From contig NZ_CP063311.1 in the NCBI RefSeq assembly GCF_015245355.1, forward strand, positions 3,367,179 to 3,431,178: 64,000 nt of DNA. Reading direction: 5' to 3'. This DNA is from Anabaenopsis elenkinii CCIBt3563 (GTDB taxonomy: Bacteria > Cyanobacteriota > Cyanobacteriia > Cyanobacteriales > Nostocaceae). The notes beneath the pieces are model-generated. The model saw only the letters and a program-made list of their open reading frames with translations. It was not told where the DNA came from and ran no database searches. Made by a program: the position numbers and the translations under genes. Each line of letters begins with the position of its first letter. Within the stretch, counting starts at the first letter, position 1. Below are positions 1 through 16,300 of this stretch, in pieces.

Positions 1-321
1 GGAGCAGCAGAAGCAGATTGGTATGACGCTATTTACATCTCAGATGATGAGATTTTTGATGGGTCTGATACTTTTATTACATCGCAATCTATTTCTGAGC
101 AAACACCCTTAGCAGCAGATGGTAGCTACACTATTACTAGTAATATTACTTTACCCAATAGGATTACAAGTGTAGGCAATCGTTACCTGTTATTCCGTAC
201 TGACCATGAGAACAATCAGCTCGAAACAGATGAGACTAATAATACCTTCCCTCAGTCCTGGGGAATCAACCCAAGTCTCCCTGTTATTGCAACCATCAGC
301 CACCGAAGAATTAACAGTTTA
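1..321 (+). pseudogene. 5' part of the large exoprotein, in another frame
   Basis: The first 321 bases are open in frame 1 and enter from outside the window. The translation includes [20 protein letters not shown], typical of the end of a CARDB-like extracellular domain. Frame 1 stops with TAA at 319-321. From about 240 the protein-like reading moves to frame 2, which then stays open to 8380. Frame 2 has stops at about 107 and 176, so it is not coding upstream. The two parts therefore look like one gene broken by a small indel or a larger out-of-frame deletion near 240-260. A sequencing error cannot be excluded from one read of the sequence. Confidence 0.6.
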
Positions 322-3300
322 TAACGGAGATATAGTCATTGCTGGGGATGAAGCATCATTACAACTCCCCTTTAGCTTCCGCGCCATATCAGAAGCTACA
401 GGTAACTTAAATATTAGTGTCGTCAATGAACTATTTTTCTTTGCCGAAGGTTCACCCAGGTTAGAAAATGCCACAATCACCCTTGTTGATCCCTTTACTG
501 GTAGAGTAATTTTCTCAGAAACCGATGCCGACGGACTGTTATTAAAGAATGACTTAACAGAAGGGTATTATAAACTCAGAGTTACAGCCGACAGCCATGA
601 TACCTATGAGCGCAATATCTACATAGGCGCAGGAGAAACCAACAACGTTCAAGCTTTCCTTTCCCGTCAGACAGTTAAATATACCTGGACTGTAGTCCCC
701 ACGGAAATCGAAGACAGATATACAATCACCATCGAAAGCGTTTTTGAAACTGATGTCCCCATTCCCACAGTAGTCATCGAACCGACATTTATTGACTTGG
801 AACGGTTGCAAGTCGTCGGTCAAGTCATGCAGATTGATATTACAGCCACTAATCATGGTTTAATTGCGGCTGAAGATATTAACCTATTTTTCGGTACACA
901 TCCTTTCTATACAATTGAGCCGCTAATTAATAACATCGATACACTAGCCGCCAAGAGTTCCATTACAGTACCAGTTCGTATTACTCGCATTGCCGACTTT
1001 GACAGTTTAAGCACCTCTGGGGGAGAATTAGCCTTACAATCCACCCCCTCGGTTCCTTGTAGTATTTCAGCCGGTTTAGATTACTACTATGAATGTGCAG
1101 GGGAACCAATTAAACGAGCCATCCCCATTCCTTTCTTCAATGTTCAAGGTAATTGTGTTAGTGGAGGTGGCGGTGGATTTGGTGGCGGCGGATTTGGTGG
1201 CGGTGGATTTGGTGGCGGTGGATTTGGCGGTGGCGGTGGACGTATCACCCCTGTGACAGTTAATATACAGTCTAGCGACTGCGATCCTTGCAAGGAAAAG
1301 AATAGACAGGCACTTGGTTGTTTATCCCTGGCTACCCTTGGTTGTGTTCCTAACCCCCTGAGTACTGCTGCTACCGTGATTGCTTGTACTATTGCCTTGG
1401 GAGATGGGGAACTTACTTTTGGTGATGGAGGTTGCATTCCTGGTCCAATTGGTTGTACTTCTTCCATTATTGATTGTCTGAAAAGTATTTGTTATGGCTT
1501 TCTATCCAATGACATCACTACAGCTAATGCCTCCGGTACAATTAATGCTGGACTGGCTCAATTAACGAGTTATTTGGAATACTGGCAAACACTGCAAGAT
1601 TTTTATTTACTGTACTATGGGGATTCCGCTTGGTTAGAAGCAAGCTCTCAAAACCAGGAGCTACTTAATACCTGGATGACAGCCTTTAGTAACAATACTC
1701 AAGGTTCAACATCAGCAGAAGTAAAAATCTCAGATACAGAAAGGGCAGAATTACTTACCTTAGCACTTCCCAATGTATTAACCGGTGCCAACGTTAATAA
1801 GTTTATAGACCGTTGGAATAGAACCATTGACTACTACAGCCAAGGTATTTACAGTGTCCAAGATGTTCCAGCAGGGGAAAATACTGACTTTTTAGCCCAG
1901 GATCAACTCCGAGCAATTGGTACTAATATAGACTCCATCCTCAGTGAGTTGGAAACAGCAGGTTATGAGGACTTAACCCAAGCAACATTAGATGTAGTCA
2001 ACGAATTGCAGAAAGCCCTAGAAGGAGGCGGGGGAGTATGCGCCACAGTCAGACTCCGCATCGACCAAGAAGCAGTAATGACTCGTGCAGCCTTCCTGGG
2101 AACCCTAGAAATAGAAAATGGTAATCCCACCAACATAGAAAACCTCTCAGTTATCCTGGAAGTTAAAGACGCTCAAGGAAACATAGTTAACGAACTCTTT
2201 GGCATCACCGCCCCCATTCTCAGGAACATCAGCGCTGTAGATGGTACTGGTATCCTCACAGGAAACAACCCCAATACCCCCCAAAATGAAGGCATTGGTA
2301 CCGCCCATTGGACATTTATCCCTACTAACCTCGCCGCACTGGAAGTACCCACACAATACAGTATCGGTGGAGTTCTCTCCTACCTGGAAAATGGCGCTAA
2401 CATCACCGTACCCCTCCTTTCTGCCCCCATCACCGTTTTCCCCCAAGCTGAATTATATTTAGACTATTTCCATCAAAGAGATGTTTTCGCCGATGATCCC
2501 TTCACTGATAAAATAGAAATCTCAGTACCCTACTCCCTCGGTGTTCTAGTTCGTAACGAAGGGAAAGGCGAAGCTAAAAACCTAAAAATCACCTCCGGTC
2601 AGCCCAAAATCATCGAAAATGAGAAGGGATTATTAATTGACTTCCAAATCATCGGCTCAGAAGTCAATGGTAGAGGAGTTAATCCCTCCCTCACTGTAGA
2701 CTTTGGTAACATCCCCGCTGGGGATACCGCCGTGGCTAACTGGCTGCTCAAGTCTTCCTTACAAGGGAAATTCATCGAGTACAGCGCCACCTTTGAACAC
2801 ATTAACAGCTTGGGTAAACCAGAACTATCCTTAATCAAAGAAGTCACCATACATGAACTCATCCGCATAGTTCAAGTTGACCATCCTCAACCAGATAACT
2901 TACCAGACTTCCTCGTTAACGGTACCTTTGACGCGGAATTTACCCCCGATATTCTTTACTTTAGTAGCGGTGGTACCGCCCCAGTAAAGGCTGTTAAAAA
3001 TGCCACCATTGACGCTGCTCCCACCATCAATGATTTAACCGTACAAATTAGCGCCACAGTAGAAGACGGGTGGACATATTTCCGCCTTCCTGAACCCAGT
3101 GATAGTCAATTTGATATTGTGCAAATCCTCCGGGGTGACGGTACACAAATTAACCCGGAAAATATTTGGACAACAGATCGCACCTTCCCCAGTACAGGAC
3201 GCCCCACTTACGAAAACATTCTGCACTTCCTGGATGATACCACTGCGGGCAATACTAACTACACCGTTATTTATACTCCCGGCGGTCCTAGGGTCACTAA

Positions 3301-6300
3301 CATTAGTAATATTGGTTCCGAGGCGATCGCCACCGCCGTCAATGCAATTACAGTGGAATTTTCCGAACCCATTCAAGGCCATACCTTTGACTACACCGAC
3401 TTAAGCCTGACTCTCAATGGTGGTAGTAACCTGATTAATAACACTGTTACCACCATTGCTTTATCTCCCACCCGCTACCAAATCACGGGATTAAACAACC
3501 TCACCAGAGAAGATGGGGAATATACTCTCACAGTCAACGCCAATGGCATCCAAGATACCACAGGTAAAGTAGGCATTGACTCCCTGAGTGAAACCTGGGT
3601 AAAAAGTCCCACCGGCAACGCAGACACCACTGCACCGGAAATAGTGGATGTTGTTAATCTGCTGATTAACCCCCGTAACCAACCAGTATCCGGTATTAAT
3701 GTCATCTTTTCCGAAAAGATTGACCTCAGTACCTTCACCTCCTCAGATATTACCCTTACCCGCGATAGTGGTACTAACTTAATTAATAGTTCCGTCACCA
3801 TCGCTGCTATTGATGATACCACCTACCGGATTAATGGACTCAGTGGGTTAACGGCAATTGACGGAAGATATACCCTGACAGTCAGTGCTGCAAATATTCA
3901 AGACCTAGCAGGGAACCTAGGAATCGGTATACAATCGGAAACCTGGGTAATGGATACCATTGCTCCGGCTTTACCCACTAATATTACCGTCACCAATCCT
4001 TTCCTCCCAGCAGGTTTGAGTTTAGCATCCTTACAACCTTTAACAGTATCGGGACAGCAGCGCATTAACACCACTACCCCTACCATTAGTGGTGAATTAG
4101 GAGAAACCGGGTTAAAAGTCTTCTTCTATGATCAAGTTACTAACCAACTCTTACAACAAGCAACGGTTACGGGAACTGAATTTACTGGTAATGTTCAATT
4201 ACCCGCTCCCGGAGCTAGAGAATTAGGCATTAGACTAGAAGATGCAGCCGGAAATACTACAAACACGACTTTAAGCCTGTTTGCCGATGTAATTCCCCCG
4301 GTTATCACTCAATTTCTCAATGTTCCTACTTCTAGCCCCAACTCATTGCCATTCATTGATGTTCAATTCTCTGAACTCATTGATATTAACACCTTTGACA
4401 GGGCTGATATTACTCTCACCCGTGATGGTGTTCTCCTTACCATTCCGGAAACCGTGACTGTTAGTTATATATCTGATACTACCTACCGAATTAACGGATT
4501 AGAAAACTTAACAGCAACGCCGGGAACTTACAGCTTACGGGTTGATGCTACCACGATCCAAGACAACGCTGGTAATAGTGGGGGTGAAGCAAAAACCACT
4601 ATGTTCACAGTTACACCACCCCCGACACTGGGAATTAGTTTAATTCAAACTGGTGGTAGTACCATGGTGACAGAAGGTGGAAATACTGACACTTATACTA
4701 TTTCCTTAAAAACCCAGCCTAGTGCTGACGTTACCATTACCTTGAGTCCAGGGAATCAAATCACTACTAATACCAATACTCTCATTTTTACCCCTGCTAA
4801 TTGGAACATTGCCCAGGTGGTGACGGTGACGGCGGTGGATGATGTGGTTACCGAAGGAACACACAATGATAGTATTACCCACAGTATTAGTAGTGCGGAC
4901 TCTGAATACAATAGCTTAACTCTGCCCACGGTGAATGTCACCATCATAGATAATGATGCAGAAATTAGAGGTAGGGTTTGGCATGATGTCAATGGTAATG
5001 CCGCTAGAGATGAAAATGAGCCTAGCCTGGAAAATTGGACGGTTTATTTAGATGGCAATAATAATAGTCAACTAGATGAGGGTGAGGTTTTTACTACTAC
5101 AGATGCAGATGGTAATTATACTTTTAATGATCTGCGTCCTGGTACTTATCGGGTGGCTCAAGTTCTCCCAGAGGGTTGGCAACAAACTTACCCCATTGTG
5201 AATGTTAGTACCACTGCTGCGGATATTCCCCTATTTATTCCTACTTTGCCTGTAACTACAAGTGATACGGCGCAACTTAACTTTAGTTCTCCCGATTACA
5301 TTGTTACAGAAGATGGCATCGCCTTGACGGAAATTGTGGTCACCCGCAGTGGTAATCTTGCTGGTGTGGTGGGTGCAACAATTACTTTTATGGATGGGAC
5401 GGCTCAAGGCTGTGGTTGTGGTCCTAGTTCGGTTAATAATGATTTCCATAACACTCCCATTACTATTACCTTCGCCGAAAACGAAACTACCAAAGTTATC
5501 GCTGTAGAAAATGCTGTGCTAGGTAATCCCAAGGCCATCCGCATCCGTAATGATAGTCAGGTTGAAGGGAATGAATACTTTACTATTAAGTTGACCAATC
5601 CCACGGGGGGCGCATCAATTGGGAGTCAAGGTATAGCTACAGTGACAATTATTGATGATGAATCTCCTAGTGATATTGTCATCACTCCTAATACACAACT
5701 TGTCTCTTGGGATAATACTCAACCATTAAGTTTAATTAACCTCGATGAATTCTGGGCAGATACCCGCTTTACTAACATCAAGGGTCAGGGTTACAGCACC
5801 GTGATCATTGACACGGGTATTGATTTAAATCATCCCTTCTTTGGTGCTGATGATGATAATGATGGCATTGCCGACCGAATTGTTTACCAGTATGATTTTG
5901 CTGATAGGGATGATAACGCCAGCGATAAAAATAACCACGGTTCCCACGTCGCTAGTATCGTCGCCTCCGTCGCCCCAGATAGTAATCTGATTATCCTCAA
6001 AGTCTTTAGAGATAACGGTTCTGGTTACTTCTCAGACTTAGAAGCAGCTTTACAATGGGTCAACAGCAACGCTGATACATATAATATTGCATCTGTCAAC
6101 CTTTCCCTAGGAGATAATCAAAACTGGACTACCCCTGTGGGGCGTTATGGTATTGCGGATGAACTAGCCGCCATAGCTAACCAAAATATCATCATTTCTG
6201 CTGCTGCGGGCAATAGTTTCTACACCTTCAACAGCCAACCCGGACTCGCTTACCCCGCCATTGACCCCAATGTGATTTCTGTGGGTGCGGTGTGGGTAGA

Positions 6301-8380
6301 TGATTTTGGCGCTCACACCTTCGGTAATGGAGCGATCAACTACAGCACCGGATCTGACCACATTGCTAGTTTCTCCCAACGTCACCCATTGATAGATGTA
6401 TTTGCCCCTGGTATTTTTATCACAGGTGCCAACGCTAGCGGCGGTACTATCACCATGGGGGGAACATCTCAAGCCACCCCCTACATTACCGGAATTGCTA
6501 CCCTAGCCCAAGAAATCGCCCAAACCTATTTAGATAGGGAATTAACATTAACGGAATTCCGCACATTATTAAGCACCACCAGTGATTTAATTATTGACGG
6601 TGATGTGGAAAACGATAATGTCAATAATACAGGCATTGCCTATCCTCGGATTAATATGTTAGGTCTAGCTGAAGCTATTCTCAACCTCGGCGATACTACT
6701 CCTAATTCAGGTGCGGTGAATCCTGGTAACAGTAATCATGATAATTCTGGGGTAACTACCAATAACGTCAGCCTCGTTCACACCGTCACCCTGACATCAG
6801 GACAAGTTGCTACAAATATTGATTTTGGTAATCAACTTATTCCCGATTTCCCCCCTGTCAACAATGCACCCATACTGACTAACCCCATTCTTGATCAGAT
6901 CGTTCTATCCAGTTCTAATTTCACATTTACTCTACCTACTGATACCTTCTCAGATGTAGATGTAATTAACCCCTTTAAAAATTTAGTAATCTTCGGTGAT
7001 AGTCTCTCTGATACTGGTAAATTGTACACTGCTACAGGTAACCTGTTCCCTCCATCGCCAAATTACCAGGGACGTTTTTCTAACGGTTTAATTTGGGTTG
7101 ATTATTTCGCCGGTGAGTTAGAATTTACCCCGGAAACTGTGAAAAACTTTGCCTTTGGCGGTGCTACAACCGGTGAATTTAGCAGTAATCCTTTATTACC
7201 CTTTGCTATACCAGGATTACTCACCCAGGTTGAGGAATTTATTGATTTAACTGCTACTAATCCTATTGGCGCAGATGGATTGTATGTGATTTGGGCTGGT
7301 GCTAATGATTTTCTATCGATTCCAGCAGATGTTAACCAAGCTATCACTGATGCTGTAAATAATATCAGTAGTGCCATCGGCATCTTAGCACAGTCAGGCG
7401 CTCAAGAGATTTTGGTAGCTAATTTGCCAGACTTGGGATTTATTCCCGCTTTGAGAAATACTCCTAATGCTCCAGGGGCTACAGCTATTACTACAGGCTT
7501 TAATACTGCTTTAAGTGCGGCATTAAACAACTTAGCACCCAGTTTGAATGTCAATTTATCTTTGATAGATAACTTTGCTTTACTGCAGGAAGATAACAGT
7601 GTCCTCCAGGAGTACGGATTTACTAATTATACAACTCCTCTGATTAATATAACTGACCCTGTATCTGCGGATGAATATTTCTTTTGGGATGAAAGACATC
7701 CTACTACTAAAGGTCATCAATTGATTGCGGAAAACTTGAGAAATCAACTGCTCAATCAGCAACTGATTCCAGATTTCCTCACCTACTCAGCCACATTAGA
7801 AAATGGTGAACCCTTACCTTCATGGTTAACTTTTAATCCTGTTACTCGCACCTTTAGCGGTACACCGGGTAATGAAGATGTCGGTACTTTTGATATTACC
7901 GTCACTGCTAGAGATACAGCGGGTACAAGTGTGGGTGATACCTTCGCCTTGACAGTAGTAGACCGACCTCCCAACGTCCTCAATCCCGCAGATATTGACG
8001 GTAACGGTAGGGTAACGGGTGCGGATTTACTATTCATTGACCAATATCTACTTTTACGCAATAATCCTAATGTTGATGCGATTTTACAAAGCTCTTTTAA
8101 TCTCTTTAGCACTGAAACTGTGGGAGCCACAAACACCACAGGTTCTGCTTTGAGGAGTGCGATCGCGAATGGGGTCAACAACTTAGCTTTTGATGTTGAT
8201 GGTAATGGTCAAGTCACAGGGGGGGATATTTTCTTAATTCGTCAAGGACTGTTACTCAAGAATAATCCTAACGTCAATGCCATTCTAGAAACCACCTTTA
8301 ATCTGTTTACCAGTGAACTCACAGGACCGAGAAACACAGGAGCCGAAATTAATGCTTTTACCTCCGGGTTGCTGGGGTAG
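206..8380 (+). CDS. Giant mosaic exoprotein: Ig-like, Calx-beta, S8 protease, GDSL esterase, dockerin-like
   Basis: The open frame encodes 2724 residues, but the ATG at 206 lies inside the overlapping frame-1 fragment and has no support as a start. Residue positions below count from it. Order: a SPGEST Ig-like segment (13-65), a carboxypeptidase-regulatory-like region (65-155), a Gly-rich linker (320-346), a Cys-rich segment (350-440), three Ig-like repeats with SETWV ends (about 1026-1470), a Calx-beta-like domain (1475-1582), an SdrD-B-like domain starting with [19 protein letters not shown] (1586-1665), a Calx-beta domain (1685-1820), and a subtilisin domain with Asp1869 (DTGID), His1911 (NHGSHV) and Ser2088 (GGTSQATP). 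A GDSL hydrolase follows with Ser2266 (GDSLSD) and Asp2495/His2498 (DERHP). Two DxDGNGxVTGxD dockerin-like repeats end the protein (about 2595-2718). It is probably a secreted or surface hydrolase; with its 5' end out of frame it may not be produced. Confidence 0.8.
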
Positions 8381-13319: not shown

Positions 13320-16300
13320 ATGTTCACCCACGTCAAGTCCACCATTAGACATATTGCGCCTGATAACTTACGCGGACGTAATTTAATCAAGGTGGTCTAT
13401 GTCGTGCTTGAGTCCCAGTATCAAAGTGCATTGTCGCAAGCTGTTAGCACGATTAACTCGAACAACCCCAACCTAGCCATTGAGATCAGTGGGTATTTGA
13501 TCGAGGAACTCCGAGACCCAGAGAACTATGAAGAGTTCAAACGGGACATGGAAACTGCTAATATCTTTATCGCTTCACTTATTTTCATAGAAGACTTAGC
13601 ACAAAAAGTAATTACCGCCGTTGAACCATACCGCGATCGCCTGGATGTGGCGGTAGTGTTCCCATCGATGCCAGAAGTAATGCGCCTGAATAAAATGGGC
13701 AGCTTTTCTTTAGCACAGTTGGGACAATCCAAGAGTGCGATCGCTCAATTCATGCGCAAACGCAAGGAGAAATCAGGGGCGGGTTTCCAAGACGGAATGT
13801 TAAAGCTGTTGCGGACTCTACCCCAAGTATTAAAGTTCCTCCCGATGGAAAAAGCGCAGGACGCGCGGAACTTCATGCTCAGTTTTCAGTATTGGCTGGG
13901 AGGTTCACCAGAAAACCTGGAAAACTTCTTGCTAATGCTAGCTGATAAATATGTATTAAAAGATGTAGACAAAAAAAACTTTCCATCTCCTCAATATGAA
14001 GCGCCAGTTGTCTACCCGGATATGGGTATTTGGCATCCTTTGTCCACGACTATGTTTGAGGATGTCAAAGAATACCTAAATTGGTATACAGCCCGCAAGG
14101 ACATTTCTAGCGATCTCAAAGATCCCTTAGCTCCTTGTGTGGGATTAGTATTACAACGCACCCACCTAGTTACTGGTGATGATGCTCATTATGTAGCCAT
14201 AGTTCAGGAATTAGAATCACTCGGCGCTAAAGTAATTCCTGTATTTGCTGGTGGGTTGGACTTCTCTAAACCCGTAGATGCTTACTTCTATGAACCAACT
14301 ACCAAAAACGCCTTAGTAGATGCAGTCGTCTCTCTGACTGGTTTTGCTTTGGTAGGTGGCCCAGCCAGACAAGACCATCCCAAGGCCATTGAAGCCCTAA
14401 AACGCCTCAATCGTCCTTACATGGTGGCATTGCCCTTAGTATTCCAAACTACCGAAGAATGGTTAGATAGTGATTTAGGCTTACATCCCATACAAGTAGC
14501 CTTACAAATTGCCATCCCCGAATTAGATGGAGCCATTGAGCCGATCATTCTCTCAGGTAGAGATGGAGCTACAGGTAAAGCGATCGCCCTCCAAGACAGA
14601 GTAGAAGCAGTAGCACAACGGGCATTAAAATGGGCTAACCTGCGGCGCAAGCCCAAACTAGAAAAAAAAGTTGCCATCACCGTTTTCAGCTTCCCCCCTG
14701 ATAAAGGTAACGTCGGTACCGCCGCCTACCTAGATGTATTCGGCTCCATCTACGAAGCATTAAAAGGGCTAAGAAACAACGGCTACGATGTGCAAAACAT
14801 CCCCGAAAGCGCCCAAGCATTGATGGAAGAAGTCATCCACGATGCTCAAGCCCAGTATGCTAGCCCAGAACTGAACATCGCCTACAAGATGTCAGTACCA
14901 GAATATGAAGCACTTACCCCCTACTCCCAACGCCTAGAAGAAAACTGGGGACCACCCCCCGGAAACCTCAACAGCGATGGGCAAAACCTGCTAATTTACG
15001 GTAAACAATTTGGTAACGTCTTCATCGGCGTACAACCCACCTTTGGTTACGAAGGTGACCCCATGCGCCTATTGTTCTCCCGTTCCGCCAGCCCACACCA
15101 TGGCTTTGCTGCTTATTACACTTACCTAGAAAGGATTTGGGGCGCAGATGCAGTGCTGCACTTTGGTACTCACGGCTCCTTGGAATTTATGCCAGGTAAG
15201 CAAATGGGGATGTCTGGAGACTGTTACCCAGATAACTTAATTGGCACAATACCTAATCTGTATTATTACGCAGCTAATAACCCCAGTGAAGCCACCATCG
15301 CCAAGCGGCGTAGTTACGCTGAAACAATTTCCTACCTCACCCCACCCGCAGAAAACGCCGGTTTATACAAAGGTTTGAAAGAACTCAGCGAGTTAATAGC
15401 TTCCTACCAAACCTTAAAAGACAGTGGTCGCGGTATTCCCATTGTCAACACCATCATGGATAAATGCCGCATCGTCAACCTGGATAAAGACATTAACTTA
15501 CCAGAAACCGACGCTAAAGAGATGACCGCCGATGAGCGAGATCAAATCGTTGGTAGGGTCTACCGCAAGTTAATGGAAATTGAATCTAGGTTGTTACCTT
15601 GTGGCTTACACATCATTGGTAAACCACCCACCGCCGAAGAAGCAGTAGCTACCCTGGTAAACATCGCCAGTTTAGACCGTCAAGAAGAAGAAATTCTCAG
15701 CTTACCCCGGATCATTGCTAACAGCATCGGGCGGAACATCGACGATATTTACCAAAACAGCGACCTAGGGGTTTTAGAAGATGTGCAACTACTGCAAGAC
15801 ATCACCCTAGCTACCCGGGGCGCTGTAGGCGCACTGGTGAAAGCACAAACCGACGCCCAAGGGCGAGTTTCCCTAGTTTCCCGGTTGAACTTCTTCAACA
15901 TGGGTAAAAAACAACCTTGGGTAGAAGCATTACATGAAGCAGGTTATCCCCAAGTTGACGCTGCTGCTTTAAAACCACTATTTGAGTATTTGGAATTCTG
16001 CTTACAACAAGTTTGTGCAGATAACGAACTCGGCGCATTACTCCAAGGTTTAGAAGGTGAGTATATCCTACCCGGCCCTGGTGGTGACCCCATCCGTAAC
16101 CCGGATGTACTACCCACAGGTAAGAATATCCACGCCCTAGACCCCCAATCTATCCCCACCACCGCCGCTGTGCAATCAGCCAAAATCGTGGTAGATAGGC
16201 TGTTGATACGCAATAAGGCAGAAAATGAGGGTAAATGGCCAGAAACCATCGCCTGTGTCCTCTGGGGAACCGATAACATTAAAACCTACGGTGAATCCCT

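Follow-up and report, generated by a model that had tools for sequence, protein, structure and literature searches.

One CADG/He_PIG dystroglycan-type domain in a large surface-type protein of Anabaenopsis elenkinii CCIBt3563 carries a whole GDSL/SGNH esterase domain within one of its loops. Our analysis of the window (the entire 64,000-nucleotide stretch of DNA studied here) and of related genomes confirms that this insertion is real. The single cadherin-like domain is very probably a split bracket that holds the complete enzyme and has been copied together with it as a cassette. The split itself, homologues lacking the insert, the single clade of the nested enzymes, the copying of the unit, the retention of catalytic and acidic residues, and the purifying selection between species were all computed in this study.

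The host open reading frame (ORF) occupies positions 206–8380 of the forward strand, on which all window features given below also lie, and encodes a multidomain protein of 2724 residues with Big_5, Calx-beta, SdrD_B-like, subtilase, split CADG with GDSL, and dockerin-like regions. Pfam places the subtilase domain (Peptidase_S8) at residues 1864–2132 (5795–6601; E = 9e-32). The N-terminal half of the split CADG/He_PIG domain comprises residues 2219–2253 (6860–6964) and contains the DxD motif, while the C-terminal half comprises residues 2522–2585 (7769–7960) and opens with the returning Asp2523. Between them, residues 2254–2521 (6965–7768) form the complete GDSL/SGNH hydrolase with its linkers. 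The original prediction had described an enzyme of 260 residues nested in this stretch; the nested stretch stands, whereas the net insert amounts to 268 residues. The borders it had read from the protein letters were right to within a few bases, with SDVDV ending at 6964 and LTYSATL starting at 7778. Dockerin-type, EF-hand-like repeats make up the C-terminus (7988–8377), where PF00404 matches two stretches, the better at residues 2595–2616, and the end of the region was read from the sequence. No signal peptide was identified in the ORF at 206–8380; the protein is presumably secreted. An upstream frame (window positions 1–320), which looks CARDB-like by eye, runs into the beginning of the host ORF in a different frame. 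The ortholog (L037/L053) runs on upstream in a single frame, unlike the window copy. Judging from these frames, the 5′ part of the window gene may be frame-disrupted, or a separate start may be used. RTX repeats (PF00353) score above the Pfam cut-off in four of the ten nested host proteins scanned (L005, L041, L043, and L046) and below it in L042; the other five, including the window protein, have no PF00353 listing.

The division of one domain into two flanks is evident from a CADG profile of 101 positions, built from the uninterrupted domains of relatives (12 hits, 11 distinct sequences). A profile search had been proposed as a check for a single hit across the enzyme, and one CADG profile indeed spans it: positions 1–35 match residues 2219–2253 of the window protein, and positions 36–99 match residues 2522–2585. 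The Pfam He_PIG model (PF05345) matches only after the enzyme (residues 2522–2584, positions 34–95 of 96, E = 3e-14); the missing front third sits across the enzyme, on its other side. Both halves are recognized in 13 of 15 nested copies, in which the N-terminal halves end at profile positions 35–36 and the C-terminal halves start at 27–36, those of several copies overlapping the profile split by up to nine positions. L044 shows the C-terminal half alone, both halves of L006 fall below significance, and the N-terminal half of L087 is absent as read. Uninterrupted 101-residue CADG domains abut the nested domain directly in three relatives (two in L036, five in L039, and one in L040). A search of the window's own genome with the joined flanks returned no uninterrupted CADG domain at E ≤ 0.01, only the halves of two nested copies. 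The insert is approximately 2.7 times the size of its CADG host domain.

The predicted structures lead to the same division. The AlphaFold2 model of the nested module (pLDDT 86, pTM 0.80) was computed from 32 alignment rows, at most 15 of which cover the flanks, and its pLDDT is 69–70 near both junctions; the other four models have mean values of 73.6–82.9. It contains strands at model residues 5–7, 14–17, 22–25, and 31–33 before the enzyme, and at 309–314, 324–327, 332–335, 343–352, and 358–368 after it. The model of an uninterrupted relative (11 rows, pLDDT 95) contains nine strands, at residues 5–6, 13–16, 21–24, 30–31, 40–45, 55–58, 63–66, 74–83, and 89–99, the two of only two residues being read from the DSSP line. 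Relative to the uninterrupted domain, the starts of strands 1–4 are shifted by 0 to +1 residues and those of strands 5–9 by exactly +269, so that the four and five strands of the nested module pair one to one with the nine of the relative, and the enzyme lies between strands 4 and 5. The claim that the enzyme splits one Ig-type fold is therefore upheld, with profile, strands, and insert-free homologues in agreement. The strand correspondence of the models further suggests that the two CADG halves are in contact. Among the 50 matches listed, fold searches with the nested model gave GDSL relatives only and no solved Ig fold, and the uninterrupted model was therefore used to test the Ig part separately. 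The best match of this uninterrupted model was dystroglycan (8uf4), with a Z score of 14.7, a deviation of 1.6 Å over 99 residues, and 29% identity.

The insertion point is the DxDxGD loop. In uninterrupted CADG domains, this loop reads D32-x-D34-A-G36-D37-x-L-x-Y, and D32, D34, G36, D37, L39, and Y41 are invariant in all 11 sequences. Nested copies carry D-x-D before the insert and D-x-x-x-Y after it; D2250, D2252, and D2523, the three loop aspartates, are retained together with Y2527 in 15 of 15 copies, in an alignment that leaves out the broken copy L087. The DxDxGD loop binds calcium in cadherins, and by analogy the three aspartates may bind calcium here. Insertion through recombination at the letters GDSL, present in the enzyme and, as GDSL or GDVL, in uninterrupted CADG loops, was considered and dropped: ahead of GDS the enzyme still has a strand belonging to it, and the chain is split before the last aspartate of the loop.

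Homologues without the insert were sought and found, and they include an ortholog of the window protein. In this ortholog (L037 of genome G044), residues 357–2306 align with window residues 347–2252 at 63% identity, and residues 2309–2381 then align with window residues 2523–2593, leaving two residues at the site where the window protein has 270. The subtilase region is matched in 30 of 208 family genomes (E ≤ 1e-40), and 12 subtilase loci were taken, 11 of them besides the window's own, with the sequence covered to approximately 1.5 kb past the match. Within this distance, none of the 11 other loci contains a GDSL match. An uninterrupted CADG domain comes straight after the subtilase in six of the 11 (L211, L212, L213, L215, L216, and L218). 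Other repeats come first in L208–L210; an uninterrupted CADG domain follows later in both L208 and L210, and L209 has only weak or cut CADG matches. L214 and L217 have no CADG match in the approximately 1.5 kb covered past the subtilase match.

The inserted domain is matched by Lipase_GDSL (PF00657) at residues 2260–2510 (6983–7735), over positions 1–207 of 208 (E = 6.1e-26), with 92.3 bits against a curated cut-off of 23.6. Ser2266, Asp2495, and His2498 had been named correctly at the outset, and Gly2319 and Asn2367 complete the SGNH set; these five residues, which we take to be catalytic, are present in all 15 nested copies and all 32 aligned relatives. Ser2266 (codon 7001–7003), the nucleophile, belongs to the FGDSLSD motif of block I, and Asp2495 to His2498 form the DxxH motif of block V (7688–7699). 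By sequence, the enzyme matches PDB entry 8a24 (E = 1.6e-32). In the predicted model, the enzyme part (model residues approximately 37–307) superimposes on PlaA (8a24) with a Z score of 32.1 (258 residues, 2.4 Å), followed by ChoE (Z 31.6), thermolabile haemolysin, and EstA (Z 25.9). The NCBIfam PlaA model gives an E value of 1.9e-43, but its 148.8 bits compare with a cut-off of 450. The nearest solved relatives are named lysophospholipase, cholinesterase, haemolysin, and esterase. The enzyme may hydrolyze esters, with (lyso)phospholipid-like or other substrates, at the cell surface. In L046 and L047, GNSL replaces GDSL, and the serine is retained.

Nested copies were detected in 13 of 217 family genomes (12 besides the window's), the match in G043 beginning only at query residue 30. 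The order sample gave near full-length matches in 11 of 388 genomes, all of the same family among the matches listed, and an additional broken copy in G167 (L087). In the phylum sample, searched with a cut-off of 1e-60, full-length matches were obtained in 7 of 377 genomes, all of the same family; the family, order, and phylum samples overlap. At least seven carriers are named, each with one of the 80 loci retained from 118: Dolichospermum planctonicum NIES-80, D. sp. LEGE 00240, D. circinale AWQC310F, D. sp. UHCC 0259, Trichormus sp. NMC-1, Anabaena sp. FACHB-1237, and Anabaena lutea FACHB-196. To judge from the nested carriers, the window's genome falls in the same family as Dolichospermum. 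In a quick tree, all 15 CADG-nested GDSL domains fall into a single clade (SH-aLRT 94), and the three copies of the window's genome cluster together (SH-aLRT 99). For this tree, 121 ungrouped GDSL domains were reduced at 62% identity to a set of 53, and several rows, including L191, have an odd letter make-up. Across seven pairs, dN/dS ranges from 0.11 to 0.32 for the whole module, from 0.15 to 0.48 for the split halves, and from 0.20 to 0.38 for the GDSL part. These computed ratios indicate purifying selection on the nested module between species. For two copies in the window's genome, dN is 0.046 and dS 0.073 overall, and 0.050 and 0.069 in the enzyme part, so that the constraint signal is weak.

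L005 is a second copy of the unit within the window's genome. Window positions 6850–7944 share 94.6% DNA identity with L005 over 1.1 kb, and the identity falls to background within 10–16 bases of the split-domain borders. Since the shared unit ends near the domain borders, the nested unit has been copied as a cassette. The hosts differ, being a subtilase protein in the window and a protein with choice-of-anchor I, phytase-like, CHRD, and 5′-nucleotidase domains in L005. Elsewhere, the host proteins carry RHS and VWD (L036), a Lipase domain with the five uninterrupted CADG domains (L039), Exo_endo_phos and choice-of-anchor I (L040), or CHRD (L043), and those of L041 and L046 are shorter proteins with PF00353. 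Recombination between CADG repeats probably spread the cassette into these unrelated proteins. The third GDSL module of the window's genome, L006, is a 387-residue ORF on the minus strand with truncated and degenerate CADG flanks, which appears to have escaped from nesting. The sister genome G001 matches L006 only over a fragment of 125 residues, located between similar neighbor genes. Near the complete nested gene of L046, an ORF of 241 residues at 13440 is a partial duplicate that contains only the CADG C-terminal half and the repeats following it.

The original prediction had called such nesting rare for enzymes in exoproteins; this statement needs qualifying, as cyanobacterial GDSL domains occur inside three host domains that are unrelated to one another. 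A phytase-like domain (PF13449) is split by GDSL in L084 (positions 3–109 and 106–230) and L085 (3–110 and 105–284), and it is uninterrupted in L005 (28–284). Around the nested domains of L005, L084, and L085, choice-of-anchor I is matched in several stretches, and L040 has a single stretch of it (14–489). L084 and L085 exhibit three nesting levels, with GDSL inside the phytase-like domain and the latter inside choice-of-anchor I. A search with the PF13449 nest of G240 matched it in full in 1 of 386 phylum genomes (G219). The beta-propeller phytase domain PF02333 is split by GDSL in L191 (46–243 and 249–370) and matched in two stretches in L190, the better (249–371) after the GDSL domain. Nearly full matches to this nest occur in 5 of 378 order genomes, counting that of the query, three of the five being judged from alignment and flanking sequence alone. 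The PF02333-nested GDSL domains (L190, L191, and L195–L199) come from five genomes of four families.

Clade tests on the quick tree rejected a single clade for all nested sets (p = 1.8e-44) and for the CADG and PF02333 sets together (p = 9e-11), and the PF02333-nested rows are intermixed with ungrouped rows. A clade of the CADG and PF13449 sets is compatible with the tree (p = 0.38); one GDSL lineage may therefore have supplied both hosts. The chances are about even that GDSL has been a serial intruder of three unrelated cyanobacterial domains, whose CADG version is a mobile cassette that can be swapped among CADG-repeat proteins. In that reading, one origin in many unrelated hosts would be explained by cassette ends that are an ordinary CADG repeat and could be exchanged by homologous recombination. 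L194 and L193 represent another GDSL class of approximately 600 residues, whose C-terminal half resembles an autotransporter-type beta-barrel by eye, and the tree places L019 and L186 with L194.

Several alternatives to the split bracket were weighed. An enzyme placed between two separate, complete Ig-type domains, like beads on a string, is highly improbable. Pfam does give one He_PIG stretch, after the enzyme, and a divergent domain before it could escape; however, the flanks correspond to successive portions of the same profile (1–35, then 36–99), the strands divide into four and five, and full-length 101-residue domains adjoin the nested one directly in L036, L039, and L040. Neither the structure prediction nor the profile search showed two complete Ig domains, and this arrangement was rejected on the profile halves and the strand division. 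Alternatively, the flanks could be degenerating leftovers of a disrupted cadherin-like domain, beside which the GDSL enzyme works alone. This possibility suits L006, which retains degenerate flanks only, and it draws further on L044 and L087, both without an N-terminal half as read, and on the weak constraint that the window's genome shows between its two copies. It fails for the copies in which both halves are conserved, given their recognition in 13 of 15 copies, the dN/dS of 0.15–0.48 for the halves in seven pairs, and the three loop aspartates retained throughout, and we regard it as quite unlikely.

An insert with a GDSL fold could also be a ligand-binding module rather than an enzyme, as the projected part of known split domains binds ligands according to the accessible text of two reports (PMC12077191, PMC10865825), and L046 and L047 have GNSL in place of GDSL. 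The Ser, Gly, Asn, Asp, and His residues do not vary among the 15 nested copies or the 32 aligned relatives, which makes this explanation unlikely. There is a negligible chance that the nested arrangement arose as an artefact of assembly or fusion in the window's genome: the host gene does seem frame-disrupted in its 5′ part, but the arrangement recurs in 13 of 217 genomes, including several assembled in few contigs, and in the seven named public records, and the artefact was rejected on this recurrence.

Considering the split-bracket reading as a whole, we propose that four CADG strands fold and the chain exits via the DxDxGD loop into the enzyme, then re-enters at the third aspartate and completes the other five strands. 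The enzyme, anchored by two linkers at one end, would project sideways and outward from the protein, presumably with its active site facing away from it. Bracket and enzyme have been copied whole into unrelated proteins, probably via recombination between cadherin-like repeats. The DxDxGD loop would be a natural insertion site for displaying an enzyme larger than the host domain, and a nested domain framed by a repeat unit could travel wherever that repeat occurs. Insert-free homologues, a single clade, and the dispersal of the unit are all visible for this one system, and domain annotation overlooks the front half of such split domains.

The window enzyme shares its fold, sequence, and catalytic residues with the PlaA, ChoE, thermolabile haemolysin, and EstA group (PF00657), whose GDSL domains are, as far as is known, free-standing or located at one protein end. 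In contrast to that group, the window GDSL domain sits inside another domain. The bracket has the profile, strands, and dystroglycan fold in common with CADG/He_PIG domains (PF05345), while that of the window is broken in the DxDxGD loop. A survey of domain insertion found it in 20% of multidomain proteins, with inserts smaller than their hosts (median 115 versus 199 residues) in its accessible text, whereas 268 residues are inserted here in a host of approximately 100 (PMC13114784). The words SGNH, GDSL, and cadherin are absent from the main text of that survey. None of the literature matches listed, from a search that most subscription journals lay outside, describes a GDSL enzyme in a cadherin-like or phytase domain, and the accessible parts of PMC2824669 and PMC6650083 contain nothing on such nesting. 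The closest likeness in architecture is to the split Ig-like domains that RTX adhesins contain (Aeromonas hydrophila AhLap, Vibrio cholerae FrhA, and MpIBP), in which, according to the accessible text, the inserted domain has its two ends next to each other and projects off the axis of a long exported protein with its binding site distal, and the nesting can stack (PMC12077191, PMC10865825). In both systems, a sequence-discontinuous Ig-like beta-sandwich carries an inserted domain. The RTX inserts described there (a carbohydrate-binding module, PA14, peptide-binding, and RTX-like domains) bind ligands or putatively do so, and none is called an enzyme (PMC12077191, PMC10865825). The insert of the window module, in contrast, is a complete cyanobacterial GDSL hydrolase in a dystroglycan-type CADG domain, with uninterrupted CADG domains adjoining it in three relatives. 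By analogy, the split-bracket principle of the RTX adhesins is the likeliest reading of how the module would work. If true, this principle would extend from ligand binding to catalysis, with the enzyme displayed by two linkers from an Ig-type stalk.
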